Shown piece by piece: positions 22,957 to 29,679 of a DNA stretch of 64,000 nt. The stretch's first letter is position 1. Every line of letters starts with the position of its first letter. The notes below the pieces were generated by a model. It was not told the DNA's origin, did not search any database, and was given only the letters and a program-made list of their open reading frames with translations. Location of the stretch: assembly GCF_004364285.1 (NCBI RefSeq), contig NZ_SOBE01000001.1:1302001-1366000 (forward strand). The letters are read 5' to 3'. Position numbers and translations under genes: made by a program. Origin of the DNA: Frigoribacterium sp. PhB116 (GTDB lineage: Bacteria; Actinomycetota; Actinomycetes; Actinomycetales; Microbacteriaceae).

Positions 22957-24027
22957 CTAGCGGAGCACGAGCCGCGGGGCGAGCAGGCGGTGCCGCGGGT
23001 CGGCGGCCGACCCGGGCGAGGCGACGCGGGCCGCGGGGCCCTGGTGCAGCAGCAGGTCCAGGGTGGCGTGGGCCACCTCCTCGACGGGCTGGTGCACGCT
23101 CGAGAGGCCGAGGGCCGCGGCGACGGGGGTGTCGTCGTAGCCGACCACGGGCACCGAGCGGCCGAGCACCATGAACGCTCCGAGGGCGAGCGAGTCGCTG
23201 GCGCAGACGACCGCGTCGATCGTGCGGCCGGTCTCGGCGAGGTGCGCCGCGAGCTCGCCGATCCGGTCGGAGGCGAGCGAGACCTGGTCGTCGACGGTCA
23301 GGTCGACCTCGTCGAGCTCCGCGGGGGCGAGCACGCCGTGGGCGAGCATCGTGTCGCGCCAGCCCTGCCGTCGCTCGGTGCCGATGCCCGACGCGGACGG
23401 CCAGCCGAGGAACACGACGCGGCGGGCTCCCCCGTCGAGCAGGGCGCGGGTCGCCTCGGCGACCCCCTGGTGCCCGTCGACGTCGACCCAGCGCCGGGCC
23501 GGGTCGGCCACGTCGCTGCCCCACGGCCGCCCGAACGACACGAAGTCGGCCTCCGCGCGCAGCAGCCAGTCGGTGCGGGGGTCGTCGTACGAGGTCGACG
23601 TGAGCACGAACGAGTCGACGTCGGCCCCGTCGAGGAGGCGGCGGAACTGGGCGACCTCGTCGAGCGGGTCCTTCGCCGTGAAGAGCAGCACGCGGAGGCC
23701 GTGCTCGTCGGCCCGCTCGGTCAGCGCGTGCAGGAAGCGGTCGAGCACCGCCCCCGAGATGCCGTTCGCGACCGGGTCGAGGCGCACCCCGATCGTCGAG
23801 CTCTTGCGGGTGCGCAGCCGCCGCGCCGATGCGTGGGGGCGGTAGGCGAGCGAGGCGATCGCCTGCTCGACCCGGGAGCGCGTGGCGGGAGCGACGATGT
23901 CGGGCGTGTTCAGCACGTTGGAGACGGTCTGGCGCGAGACGCCCGCCTCCTTGGCGACGTCCACGACCGTGGGCAGGCGCGGCGACTCGACACTCGGCAC
24001 GGCCCACCTCGTCTCGCTCGTCGTCAT
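22957..24027 (-). CDS. LacI family transcriptional regulator of sugar island 1
   Basis: This 356-residue protein has the LacI HTH and hinge, TVVDVAKEAGVSRQTVSNVLN and YRPHASARRLRTRKSSTIGV, then a periplasmic-binding-like domain with VDSFVLTSTSYDDPR, VVFLGWPSASGIGTERRQG and VVGYDDTPVAAALGLSSVHQP. It is divergent from the solute-binding protein gene; the operator-like TTTGATCGTTCAAA at 24132-24145 sits just downstream of that gene's promoter. It is expected to repress the ABC importer and be released by the imported sugar. Confidence 0.93.
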   Translation of the reverse strand: MTTSETRWAVPSVESPRLPTVVDVAKEAGVSRQTVSNVLNTPDIVAPATRSRVEQAIASLAYRPHASARRLRTRKSSTIGVRLDPVANGISGAVLDRFLHALTERADEHGLRVLLFTAKDPLDEVAQFRRLLDGADVDSFVLTSTSYDDPRTDWLLRAEADFVSFGRPWGSDVADPARRWVDVDGHQGVAEATRALLDGGARRVVFLGWPSASGIGTERRQGWRDTMLAHGVLAPAELDEVDLTVDDQVSLASDRIGELAAHLAETGRTIDAVVCASDSLALGAFMVLGRSVPVVGYDDTPVAAALGLSSVHQPVEEVAHATLDLLLHQGPAARVASPGSAADPRHRLLAPRLVLR

Positions 24028-24194: not shown

Positions 24195-25454
24195 GTGCAA
24201 CGACGCATCCGCCGCCTGATGGCCTTCGGCGCCATCGCCACCGTGACCGGGCTCGCGCTCAGCGCGTGCGGCTCCGGCTTCAGCGAGGGAGGCGGCGACG
24301 GCGCGAGCTCCGACGGCGCCCTCACCTCGAGCGACGACTCGCTCACCGTGCTGATCGCCTCGAGCGGCGACGCCGAGGCCGCGGCCGTCCGCGACGCCGT
24401 CGCGAGCTGGTCGGGCGACAGCGGCACCGACGCCGAGGTGAGCGTCGCCAGCGACCTGCCGCAGCAGCTCAGCCAGGGCTTCGCCTCCGGCTCGCCCGCC
24501 GACGTCTTCTACCTCTCGACCGACGCCCTCGCGGGCTTCGCCGAGAACGGCAGCCTGCTCGCCTACGGCGACCAGCTCAGCGAGACCGACGACTTCTTCC
24601 CCACGCTCGTCGACAGCTTCACCTACGACGACCAGTTCTACTGCGCGCCCAAGGACTTCTCGACGCTCGGCCTCGTGATCAACGAGCAGATGTGGCAGGA
24701 GGCGGGCCTCACCGACGCAGACGTGCCCACCGACTGGGACGGCCTCGCCGACGTCGCGGCGAAGCTCACCACCGCCGACCACGTCGGCCTCGCCTTCGGG
24801 GCCGAGTACGCCCGCGTCGGCGCCTTCATGGCCGAGGCCGGCGGCTCGCTGACGAACGAGGACGGCACGGAGGCGACGGTCGACTCCGACGAGAACGTCG
24901 AGGGCCTGACCTACGTCAAGGACCTGGTCACGAGCGGCGACGCCGCGTTCGCCGCCGACCTCGGCGCCGGCTGGGGCGGCGAGGCCTTCGGCACCGGCAA
25001 GGCCGCGATGACGGTCGAGGGCAACTGGATCGCCGGCGCGATGAACGCCGACTACCCCGACGTCGACTACCGCGTCGCCGAGATGCCCTCCGGCCCCGGC
25101 GGCCAGGGCACCCTGCAGTTCACCAACTGCTGGGGCATCGCCGCCGACAGCCCCAACCAGCAGGCCGCGCTCGAGCTCGTCGAGCAGCTCGTCAGCACCG
25201 ACCAGCAGCTCGCCTTCGCCGACGCGTTCGGCGTGATGCCGAGCGTCCAGTCGGCCGCCGACCAGTGGAAGACGGACAACCCCGACTCCGCGGCCTTCCT
25301 CGACTCGGCCGACTTCGCCGTCGGCGTGCCCACGCAGCAGGGCGCGGCCGACGTGATCGCCGACTTCAACTCGCAGCTCGAGGGCCTCAGCACGGCCGAG
25401 CCGGCCGACCTGCTCGAGTCGTTCCAGTCGAACTACGCGGCGATCCTGCCGTGA
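24195..25454 (+). CDS. Sugar ABC transporter substrate-binding lipoprotein
   Basis: The 419-residue protein starts with GTG 24195 (GAGGAG about seven bases upstream). The signal peptide ends in LALSAC, with lipidated Cys25. The mature protein is a family 1 (MalE/UgpB-like) binding protein: PADVFYLSTDALAGFAENG, FYCAPKDFSTLGLVINEQMW, ALGAGWGGEAF-like and the MTVEGNWIAGAM segment are typical. It should capture an oligosaccharide and hand it to the two permeases. Its stop overlaps a GTG start of the permease frame. Confidence 0.94.
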   Translation: MQRRIRRLMAFGAIATVTGLALSACGSGFSEGGGDGASSDGALTSSDDSLTVLIASSGDAEAAAVRDAVASWSGDSGTDAEVSVASDLPQQLSQGFASGSPADVFYLSTDALAGFAENGSLLAYGDQLSETDDFFPTLVDSFTYDDQFYCAPKDFSTLGLVINEQMWQEAGLTDADVPTDWDGLADVAAKLTTADHVGLAFGAEYARVGAFMAEAGGSLTNEDGTEATVDSDENVEGLTYVKDLVTSGDAAFAADLGAGWGGEAFGTGKAAMTVEGNWIAGAMNADYPDVDYRVAEMPSGPGGQGTLQFTNCWGIAADSPNQQAALELVEQLVSTDQQLAFADAFGVMPSVQSAADQWKTDNPDSAAFLDSADFAVGVPTQQGAADVIADFNSQLEGLSTAEPADLLESFQSNYAAILP

Positions 25455-25549
25455 GCACCGCCTAGCCCCGCGTCGGCCGAAGGGCCCGCCCCGGCACCGC
25501 CTCGCGGGGCGAGGCCACCTCGGGCTGGCTCTTCGTCACCCCGACCATC

Positions 25550-26560
25550 GTGGTCCTCGGGCTGTTCCTGCTCGTGCCGATGGTGATGGCCCTGTGGGTC
25601 AGCGTCTCGGACTGGAGCGGTCGCGGCTCGCCCTTCAGCTCCTCCGTCGGCTTCGTCGGCCTGCAGAACTACGACGACCTCGTGAACGGAGGCGGGCTGG
25701 CGGCCCGCGACTTCGGCATCTCCCTGCGCAACAACGCCTGGTACGTCGTCTTCGTCGTGCCGATCCAGACCGCGGTCTCGCTGTTCCTCGCAGTGCTGGT
25801 CAACCGGCAGGTGCTGCGCGGCCGGGGCTTCTTCCGCACCGCGTTCTACTTCCCGTCCGTGACGAGCTCGGTCGCGATCACCGTGGTGTGGCTGTTCCTG
25901 TTCACGCAGACCGGCGCCGTGAACCGCGCCCTGTCGTGGCTCGGGATCGAGGGGCCGGCCTGGTTCCAGGACCCGAGCGGCGTCGTCCACAACGCCCTCG
26001 GCGCGATCGGCGTCACCGGCCCCGCGTTCCTCACCGACCACGACCTGCTCGGCGTGAGCTGGTGGGACTGGTTCGCCGGCCCCTCCGTCGCCATGAGCGC
26101 CTTCGTGCTGATGGCCGTCTTCACGACGAGCGGCACCTTCATGCTGCTGTTCATCGCTGCGCTGCAGAACCTCGGCGGCGACGTGCAGGAGGCGGCGATG
26201 ATGGACGGCGCGAACGCCTGGCAGCGCTTCTGGCGCGTCACCCTGCCGCAGCTGCGGCCGACGCTGTTCACGGTGCTGACGCTCGGCCTGATCGGCACCT
26301 GGCAGGTCTTCGACCAGATCTACACCGGCACACAGGGCGGGCCCGCGAAGACGACGCTGACGCCCTCGTACCTCTCGTACACCTCGGCCTTCGCCGGGCA
26401 GGACTGGGGCCGCGGCGCGGCCATCGCGTTCGTGCTCTTCGCGATCATCGTCGTGCTCACGATCGTGCAGCGCGCGGTGCTGCGCGAGCGGCCGGTGTCC
26501 CGACGGCGGATGTCGCTCTACGAACCGACGTCCTCGACGACGAAGGAGGCAGGCCGATGA
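25550..26560 (+). CDS. Sugar ABC transporter permease 1 (MalF type); N-terminus interrupted by an amber codon
   Basis: The reading frame encodes a MalF-type permease with the EAA loop EAAMMDGANAWQRFWRVTLPQ. Its natural start should be GTG 25451, overlapping the binding-protein stop as GTGA, but that frame reads GTG AGC ACC GCC TAG: an amber stop is codon 5. After the TAG the frame is open to 26560, and codons 25466-25549 read like a normal permease N-terminus (PRVGRRARPGTASRGE, then TSGWLFVTPTIV) with no ATG, GTG or TTG. The first possible restart is GTG 25550, inside TM helix 1, with no ribosome site. Either this is a nonsense mutation, a sequencing error or a gene that relies on reinitiation or readthrough. 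The coordinates given are the longest stop-free frame with a start. Confidence 0.7.
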   Translation: MVLGLFLLVPMVMALWVSVSDWSGRGSPFSSSVGFVGLQNYDDLVNGGGLAARDFGISLRNNAWYVVFVVPIQTAVSLFLAVLVNRQVLRGRGFFRTAFYFPSVTSSVAITVVWLFLFTQTGAVNRALSWLGIEGPAWFQDPSGVVHNALGAIGVTGPAFLTDHDLLGVSWWDWFAGPSVAMSAFVLMAVFTTSGTFMLLFIAALQNLGGDVQEAAMMDGANAWQRFWRVTLPQLRPTLFTVLTLGLIGTWQVFDQIYTGTQGGPAKTTLTPSYLSYTSAFAGQDWGRGAAIAFVLFAIIVVLTIVQRAVLRERPVSRRRMSLYEPTSSTTKEAGR

Positions 26561-27492
26561 CCGCCACGGCTCCCGTCACCGACCTCGTCGGCACCGGCCG
26601 GCCCGCCGGGCCTCCCCCGTCGTCCTCTGCTGCGGACCGCAAGGGTCCTCGTCCGCCGCGCGGCACCTCCTCGCTGGTGTCGTCGTCGGTGCTCTACGCG
26701 GCGCTGGTCGCGCTGGCGCTCGTCTACATCGTGCCGTTCCTGGTGAGCGTGGCGACGTCGTTCAAGACCGACGCGGACGCGGCGGCCGACCCGCTCTCGC
26801 TGGTGCCCGCGACCTGGACGACGGCGGCGTTCCAGACGCTCTTCGTCAACAGCGACTTCCCGACCTGGGCGACGAACAGCGCGATCGTGGCGGTGTTCGT
26901 GACGGCGGGCCGCGTGTTCTTCGACTCGCTGGCGGGCTACGCGCTGGCCCGGCTGCGGTTCCGCGGGCGGGGCGTCGTGTTCGCCGCGCTGATCGGCGTC
27001 ATGGCGGTGCCGAGCGTGGTGCTGCTGATCCCGAAGTTCCTGGTGATCAACCAGCTCGGCATCTACGACTCGTACGCCGGCATGATCATCCCGCTGCTCG
27101 TCGACGCGGCCGGGGTGTTCATCATGAAGAACTTCTTCGAGTCGATCCCGCCGAGCGTCGAGGAGCAGGCCCGGATCGACGGCGCCGGCACGTTCCGTGT
27201 CTTCTGGTCGATCGTGCTGCCGATGGCCCGTCCCGCGCTGGTCACGATCGTCATCCTGTCGTTCCAGGGGTCGTGGAACGAGCTCTCGCACTTCATCATC
27301 TCGACCCAGTCGCCCGAGCTGACGACCCTCACGAAGGGCGTCGCGGGGCTCGCCTCCGGGCAGCTCAGCCAGGGCAGCCAGTACCCGGTGAAGCTCGCCG
27401 CCGCGGTCGTCATGACCATCCCCGTCGCCGTGATCTTCTTCGTGTTCCAGCGCCAGATCATGAACAGCAGCGACGGGGCCGTGAAGGAGTGA
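26557..27492 (+). CDS. Sugar ABC transporter permease 2 (MalG type)
   Basis: This 311-residue protein starts at ATG 26557, overlapping the upstream TGA, with AAGGAGG about eight bases before. Six helices are predicted. The EAA loop reads EEQARIDGAGTFRVFWSIVLPMARPA. A disordered, Pro/Ser-rich head of 40 residues precedes helix 1. With the binding protein and permease 1 it forms a carbohydrate uptake type-1 importer; no ATPase gene is present, so a shared MsiK/UgpC-type ATPase is expected. Confidence 0.93.
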   Translation: MTATAPVTDLVGTGRPAGPPPSSSAADRKGPRPPRGTSSLVSSSVLYAALVALALVYIVPFLVSVATSFKTDADAAADPLSLVPATWTTAAFQTLFVNSDFPTWATNSAIVAVFVTAGRVFFDSLAGYALARLRFRGRGVVFAALIGVMAVPSVVLLIPKFLVINQLGIYDSYAGMIIPLLVDAAGVFIMKNFFESIPPSVEEQARIDGAGTFRVFWSIVLPMARPALVTIVILSFQGSWNELSHFIISTQSPELTTLTKGVAGLASGQLSQGSQYPVKLAAAVVMTIPVAVIFFVFQRQIMNSSDGAVKE

Positions 27493-27588: not shown

Positions 27589-29679
27589 ATGACCGACACC
27601 ACGTCACGACCCACGACCGTCGCCGACTCAGGCGCCGCAGCCGCCGACGCCGCGTCGGCCACGTCGGCCCCTTCGGCCGAGCCGCTCCAGCCGTTCCTCG
27701 CCGCCGAGACCGTGGTGCTCAAGGCGCCCGCCCAGGCCTGGTCCGACTCGACCGGCGCGATGGGCGGCGCTGCGATCCACGGCGTCTGGGCCGGCGACAC
27801 CCGCGTGCTGCGCGGGCACCGGGTCGAGGTCCGGGGCAGCAGGGTCGAGACGATCGCCTCGGTGCCGCTCGGCGCCTCCTCGATCCGGTTCGAGTCGCTG
27901 CTGCGCGGCCTCGACGACCACGGGGCCGACCCCGACGTGCGGCTGTCGCTGCTGCGCGAGGTCGGCACCGGCGGGGTCCGCGAGACGCTCACGGCGACGT
28001 CGCGCCTGGCTCGCGAGCTCGACGTCGTGCTGACCGTGGCGGTGCAGCCCGACGCGTCGTCGATGGACGAGGTGAAGGCGGGGCTGCCGGCCGTGCCGCC
28101 GCGTGACCTGCGGGTCGACGGGGTACGCGCCTCCTGGTCGGGCGGCGACGCCGTGACGACGCTGACGCTGACCGGCGCAGGGAGCGCGGCGGGCGGGGCC
28201 GACGACGGAGGCGAGACGGTCAGCGCGGACGCAGGAGGCGCGGTGCGGATCGAGGCCACCGCCGACGGCGAGCTGCGGCTGACCTGGCACCTGCGCGTGC
28301 CGGCCCGGGGTGCCGCCTCGGCCGGGCTCGAGCTCACGACGGTGCTCGACGGCGCGGTCGTGGCCGGCGTCGAGGGCGACCAGCGCTGGGGCGCCCTCGA
28401 CCCTGCGCCGCACGACGACCGCCTGGCACGCTGGCTCGACCAGGCGCTCGGCGACCTGTCCGCGCTCCGCATGACGACGACCGACCGACCCGACGACGTG
28501 TTCTTCGCCGCGGGCGCCCCCTGGTTCTTCACCCTCTTCGGCCGCGACTCGCTCTGGGCTGCGCGGCTGGCGCTGCCGCTCGACCCCGACCTCCGCGTGG
28601 GCCTGGGCGTCGCGGCCGGCACCCTGCGCGTGCTCGCCGGCCTGCAGGGCACGCGCGAGGTCGCGGCGAGCGCCGAGCAGCCCGGCAAGGTCATGCACGA
28701 GCTGCGGCAGCGGCCGCTCGAGATCCACGGGGAGGGCGTCACGCTCGCGCCCCTCTACTACGGCACGGTCGACGCGACGGCGCTCTGGATCTGCCTGCTG
28801 CACGACGCGTGGCGAGCGGGCCTCCCCGACGACGAGGTGCGGGCCCTGCTGCCGCACCTGGAGGCGGCGCTCGACTGGATGCGCGACCACGGCGACAGCG
28901 ACGGCGACGGCCTGCTCGAGTACGTCGACGAGACCGGCCACGGCCTGTCGAACCAGGGCTGGAAGGACTCGGGCGACAGCGTCCAGTGGAGCGACGGGCG
29001 CCTCGCCGACGGCCCGATCGCGCTGTGCGAGGTGCAGGCCTACGCGCACGAGGCGGCGGTGCACGGCGCCGATCTGCTCGACGCGTTCGACCGCCCCGGG
29101 GCCGACGAGTGGCGCGGCTGGGCCGACCGGCTGCGGACGGCGTTCCGTGAGCGCTTCTGGGTCACGGACGCGCGAGGCAGGTTCCCTGCCGTCGCCCTCG
29201 ACGCCGACAAGCGCGCGGTCGACACGGTCACGAGCAACATCGGGCACCTGCTCGGCACCGGACTGCTCGACGCCGACGAGGAGTCGCTGGTCGCCGCCCG
29301 CCTCGCCGGCCCCGAGCTCGCGAGCGGCTTCGGCCTCCGCACGCTCAGCTCGGACGCGGCCGGCTTCTGGCCCCTCGGCTACCACCTCGGCACCGTCTGG
29401 ACCCACGACACCGCCGTCGCGGTCGCCGGCCTCGCCGCGACGCACCACCACGAGGAGGCGCGTCTGCTGTCCGAGGGACTGCTCGCCGCGGCGCCGTGGT
29501 TCGGCTACCGCATGCCCGAGCTGCACGGGGGCGACGCCGCGGCCGACGTGCCCGCGCCGGTGCCGTACCCGGCGTCGTGCCGGCCGCAGGCGTGGTCGGC
29601 GGCCGCGGCCGTCGCGGTGTGGGCGGCGACGTCGCGCGCGTGCGCTTGCGGCGACGCCGGCGACGCCGGCGGGGCCTAG
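27589..29679 (+). CDS. Glycogen-debranching-type glycosidase (amylo-alpha-1,6-glucosidase family)
   Basis: This 696-residue cytoplasmic protein has an N-terminal beta-rich glycogen-debranching domain (about 35-280; IHGVWAGDTRVLRGHRVEV) followed by an (alpha/alpha)6-barrel (about 290-660) with APWFFTLFGRDSLWAAR, QPGKVMHELRQRPLEIHGEG, NQGWKDSGDSVQW and FGLRTLSSDAAGFWPLGYHLGTVW. This layout is common in actinobacterial proteins encoded with sugar ABC importers. It probably hydrolyses the imported oligosaccharide. The tail is cysteine- and glycine-rich (SRACACGDAGDAGGA), unlike the rest. Confidence 0.85.
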   Translation: MTDTTSRPTTVADSGAAAADAASATSAPSAEPLQPFLAAETVVLKAPAQAWSDSTGAMGGAAIHGVWAGDTRVLRGHRVEVRGSRVETIASVPLGASSIRFESLLRGLDDHGADPDVRLSLLREVGTGGVRETLTATSRLARELDVVLTVAVQPDASSMDEVKAGLPAVPPRDLRVDGVRASWSGGDAVTTLTLTGAGSAAGGADDGGETVSADAGGAVRIEATADGELRLTWHLRVPARGAASAGLELTTVLDGAVVAGVEGDQRWGALDPAPHDDRLARWLDQALGDLSALRMTTTDRPDDVFFAAGAPWFFTLFGRDSLWAARLALPLDPDLRVGLGVAAGTLRVLAGLQGTREVAASAEQPGKVMHELRQRPLEIHGEGVTLAPLYYGTVDATALWICLLHDAWRAGLPDDEVRALLPHLEAALDWMRDHGDSDGDGLLEYVDETGHGLSNQGWKDSGDSVQWSDGRLADGPIALCEVQAYAHEAAVHGADLLDAFDRPGADEWRGWADRLRTAFRERFWVTDARGRFPAVALDADKRAVDTVTSNIGHLLGTGLLDADEESLVAARLAGPELASGFGLRTLSSDAAGFWPLGYHLGTVWTHDTAVAVAGLAATHHHEEARLLSEGLLAAAPWFGYRMPELHGGDAAADVPAPVPYPASCRPQAWSAAAAVAVWAATSRACACGDAGDAGGA

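Follow-up and report, generated by a model that had tools for sequence, protein, structure and literature searches.

The window analysed here, a stretch of 64,000 nucleotides from Frigoribacterium sp. PhB116, contains a sugar ABC importer operon in which the fifth codon of the first permease gene (permease 1) is an in-frame amber stop. This stop is absent from all orthologues that were examined, and the reading frame is conserved on either side of it. We posit, with a probability of roughly 0.7, that the amber codon arose recently, by a nonsense mutation found in this genome alone, and that the importer served by this MalF/UgpA-type permease has been lost or strongly reduced. According to this interpretation, the mutation would have turned the fifth codon into a stop, and ribosomes finishing the upstream binding protein would pass to the overlapping permease start, make a four-residue peptide and terminate. 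Full-length permease 1 would then not be made, which would leave the importer lost or strongly reduced. The case most likely represents ordinary recent gene loss in a dispensable sugar importer, with no special translation trick.

The importer operon and the early stop codon

The operon lies divergent from a LacI-family regulator gene on the reverse strand (22957–24027; Pfam LacI and Peripla_BP_1/3). Its first gene, on the forward strand like the rest of the operon, encodes an intact sugar ABC transporter substrate-binding protein (24195–25454; Pfam SBP_bac_8/SBP_bac_1) and stops at the TGA at 25452–25454, which overlaps the GTG start of permease 1 as GTGA. From 25451 the permease sequence reads GTG AGC ACC GCC TAG CCC CGC, so that the original start and the amber codon (25463–25465) delimit a segment of only 15 bases (25451–25465). 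The TAG is followed by 28 open codons among which there is no in-frame ATG, GTG or TTG that could serve as a substitute start, and the first in-frame start codon is the GTG at 25550–25552 (residue 29 after the TAG, and the only restart codon near the N-terminus), which opens an ORF of 336 residues (25550–26560). The overlapping start, the stop at codon 5 and the lone restart had all been proposed in a preliminary description of this locus, and all three were confirmed from the sequence. The same description held that permease 2 begins with a GTGA overlap in both sugar islands of the window. This is correct for island 2 (57347), while permease 2 of the present island starts with ATGA (26557). 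The early-amber motif occurs a single time in the 64-kb window.

Beyond the TAG the permease frame (25466–26560, forward strand) is open to its own TGA and matches Pfam BPD_transp_1 (E=8.1e-17; 62 bits against a curated cut-off of 26.4). It is flanked by the SBP_bac_8 binding-protein gene and by a second permease gene, which is intact, overlaps permease 1 as ATGA and yields NCBIfam UgpE/MalG-type matches (26557–27492, forward strand; 98% identical to its relatives). Permease 2 has a strong Shine-Dalgarno sequence of its own (−12.5 kcal/mol), and it may still be made from this ribosome site unless transcription ends early in the untranslated stretch. Downstream in the island follows a gene whose domains indicate a glycogen-debranching-type glycoside hydrolase (27589–29679, forward strand; GDE_N_bis, MGH1-like).

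Permease 1 misses the equivalog cut-offs of the NCBIfam UgpA, MalF and GlcT models (best 107 bits versus 335), and its sequence matches include SugA (8ja7, 7cad) and MalF (2r6g). Judged by sequence, it is a member of the same superfamily as UgpA, MalF and GlcT, and we leave its substrate unnamed. The genome was also examined for a second intact copy of permease 1, and none was found; the next best match covers part of the protein at 40% identity and was rejected as such a copy.

Comparison with related genomes

The closest orthologues of permease 1 are those of Frigoribacterium sp. ACAM 257 (hereafter G012) and of a second relative (G015), with 98% and 97% protein identity, respectively. The binding protein is likewise 98% identical to its counterparts in both genomes, and at the DNA level the region is about 92% identical to either. 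The GTGA overlap at the permease 1 start is the same in G012, G015 and the genome of the window (G000), and both relatives carry a serine codon at the position of the TAG. This locus comparison, which the preliminary description had recommended, was extended to 31 homologue loci reaching down to 56% identity (two of them, L009 and L045, from one genome). None of the 31 has a stop between its start and the position corresponding to 25550. Among the genomes sampled, the window alone has TAG at this codon, which is open in every orthologue, and the stop is therefore private to the window's genome. The same comparison rules out 25550 as the natural start: homologues beginning there, which would have spoken against a truncated gene, were not seen, as all 31 loci have a start codon at least 20 codons further upstream.

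The permease 1 of G015 (L010, G015:C1 near 1019228) has about 15 extra codons after its start, which indicates that the N-terminal tail is variable in length within this permease family. The importer is also patchy in the genus. Permease 1 orthologues of at least 78% identity are present in 12 of the 16 genus genomes, the window's genome counted, and four (G003, G011, G013 and G014) have no close orthologue.

Selection on the interrupted frame

Apart from the TAG, permease 1 shows no decay. Relative to G012 and G015, the frame after the stop has dN/dS values of 0.09 and 0.11, respectively, similar to those of permease 2 (0.08 and 0.05) and of the binding protein (0.17 and 0.13). Constraint of this order (dN/dS about 0.1) is that of a coding sequence, and it implies either that the loss is recent or that the gene is still in use. 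When the binding protein and the two permeases are taken together, the window branch has 16 private amino acid changes to 42 synonymous ones, compared with 14 to 88 on the other two branches together, an excess of amino acid changes with a Fisher p of 0.037 in a test made after the data were seen. This gives a weak hint that constraint may be beginning to relax on the window branch. Within the binding protein, seven private amino acid changes fall on the window branch and one on each sister branch, which could perhaps reflect early relaxation of the whole importer (24195–27492).

The preliminary description had offered three options, namely fresh inactivation, a sequence error, and dependence on readthrough or reinitiation. 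Fresh inactivation is the best supported of these, as the orthologues are all open at the codon, the window stands alone with TAG and the downstream frame still appears to be under constraint.

Mutation or sequencing error

The main rival explanation, which we consider unlikely yet the strongest of the alternatives, is that the TAG is an error made in sequencing or assembly and that the organism itself has an intact gene. It would fit a single-base difference from both close relatives in a gene that is otherwise undamaged. A length of 400 kb of the window's contig was compared with its counterparts in G012 and G015. With G012 as reference, 16 of 181 conserved genes were flagged in the window's genome. 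Longest ORFs reach too far at their 5' ends, which makes this survey noisy, and the flagged cases were checked against the actual ORF lengths. After this check, which took in the cases flagged with either reference, permease 1 remained as the one long gene in the 400 kb with a clear disruption private to the window's genome; the other flagged cases retain about 80% or more of their length, except for one doubtful ORF of 128 residues. By this measure the assembly does not appear visibly error-rich, which argues against an error, although a lone wrong base could escape a survey of this kind. Moreover, about 8% of the aligned bases differ from the relatives, and with that many true substitutions no special cause has to be invoked for one nonsense change. 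We infer that the organism does carry this base.

The TAG also creates the tetramer CTAG, which is about 2.8-fold under-represented in this genome (119 observed versus 332 expected). The rarity of the tetramer could be counted in favour of an error, but a new CTAG fits mutation or error alike. Relative to the trinucleotide expectation, CTAG is under-represented about 2.5- to 2.8-fold in each of G000, G012 and G015 (400 kb each, L072–L131).

Can permease 1 still be translated?

A less probable alternative accepts the mutation as real and proposes that a shortened permease 1 is produced by reinitiation at GTG 25550, so that the importer keeps partial function. A precedent exists in E. coli lacI: PMC3694819, with reference to Steege (1977) and Platt (1972), describes how translation can reinitiate at codons 23, 24, 38 or 42 once it has terminated at codon 4/5. 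Given this precedent, a low level of truncated permease 1 is conceivable. The product would also retain a hydrophobic stretch of 19 residues from helix 1 (VVLGLFLLVPMVMALWVSV; mean hydropathy 2.57). The preliminary description had stated that a restart here cuts helix 1, and this holds insofar as the beginning of the helix would be lost along with the N-terminal tail; with 19 hydrophobic residues remaining, the helix would be shortened, not destroyed. AlphaFold modelled the frame poorly (mean pLDDT 49), and the model was not relied on, although its first helix (14–51) agrees with the hydropathy profile.

Several observations weigh against reinitiation. A ribosome site was not found at GTG 25550, as had been noted before, with an anti-Shine-Dalgarno energy of +0.2 kcal/mol compared with a median of −3.3 at random positions. 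Between the TAG and the restart lie 84 bases, and the homologues show no conservation of this GTG as a start. Furthermore, the residues G20, W21, F23 and P26 (GWxFxxP), which are invariant in 22 homologues, all lie upstream of it. Reinitiation, one of the options in the preliminary description, may be possible at a low level, with neither a ribosome site nor conservation in its favour. A stronger version, in which the amber is tolerated because termination-reinitiation without a Shine-Dalgarno sequence at GTG 25550 yields an importer that works with its first helix trimmed, seems to us quite improbable.

Programmed readthrough or recoding of the amber codon is very improbable, and only the open and conserved downstream frame would speak for it. 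The stop is absent from every relative examined, the whole genome yielded 45 tRNA genes of which none has the amber-reading anticodon CTA, and TAG serves as an ordinary stop next door, ending the neighbouring lacI and GDE genes; the earlier suggestion that the gene might depend on readthrough is accordingly disfavoured. Returning to recent inactivation by a nonsense mutation as the preferred reading, we infer that importer activity is lost.

Significance and comparison with known systems

The locus has a practical bearing on annotation. An automatic gene caller would probably start permease 1 at 25550 and thereby mask a broken gene, and the finding also bears on predicting which sugars the strain can eat. 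In broader terms, it is a minor instance of the recent loss of a dispensable sugar importer whose operon is already patchy in the genus.

In its domain (BPD_transp_1), its length and its operon place between binding protein and permease 2, permease 1 resembles the MalF/UgpA/SugA-type carbohydrate ABC permeases, from which the present frame differs by the amber at codon 5. A stop at codon 4/5 with restart codons further down is likewise described for early nonsense and frameshift alleles of lacI in PMC3694819. Unlike in those alleles, the sole restart GTG of permease 1 is without a ribosome site and the N-terminus that would be removed includes family-invariant residues. The closest likeness in kind is to strain-private nonsense pseudogenes, with which permease 1 shares a lone nonsense codon in an otherwise undamaged frame and the presence of intact orthologues in sister species, and the ancestral start is kept upstream of the stop, with the GTGA overlap of the two relatives. 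Unlike in the usual pseudogene of this type, the stop comes so early that a restart product is conceivable, and loss of function is what we predict.
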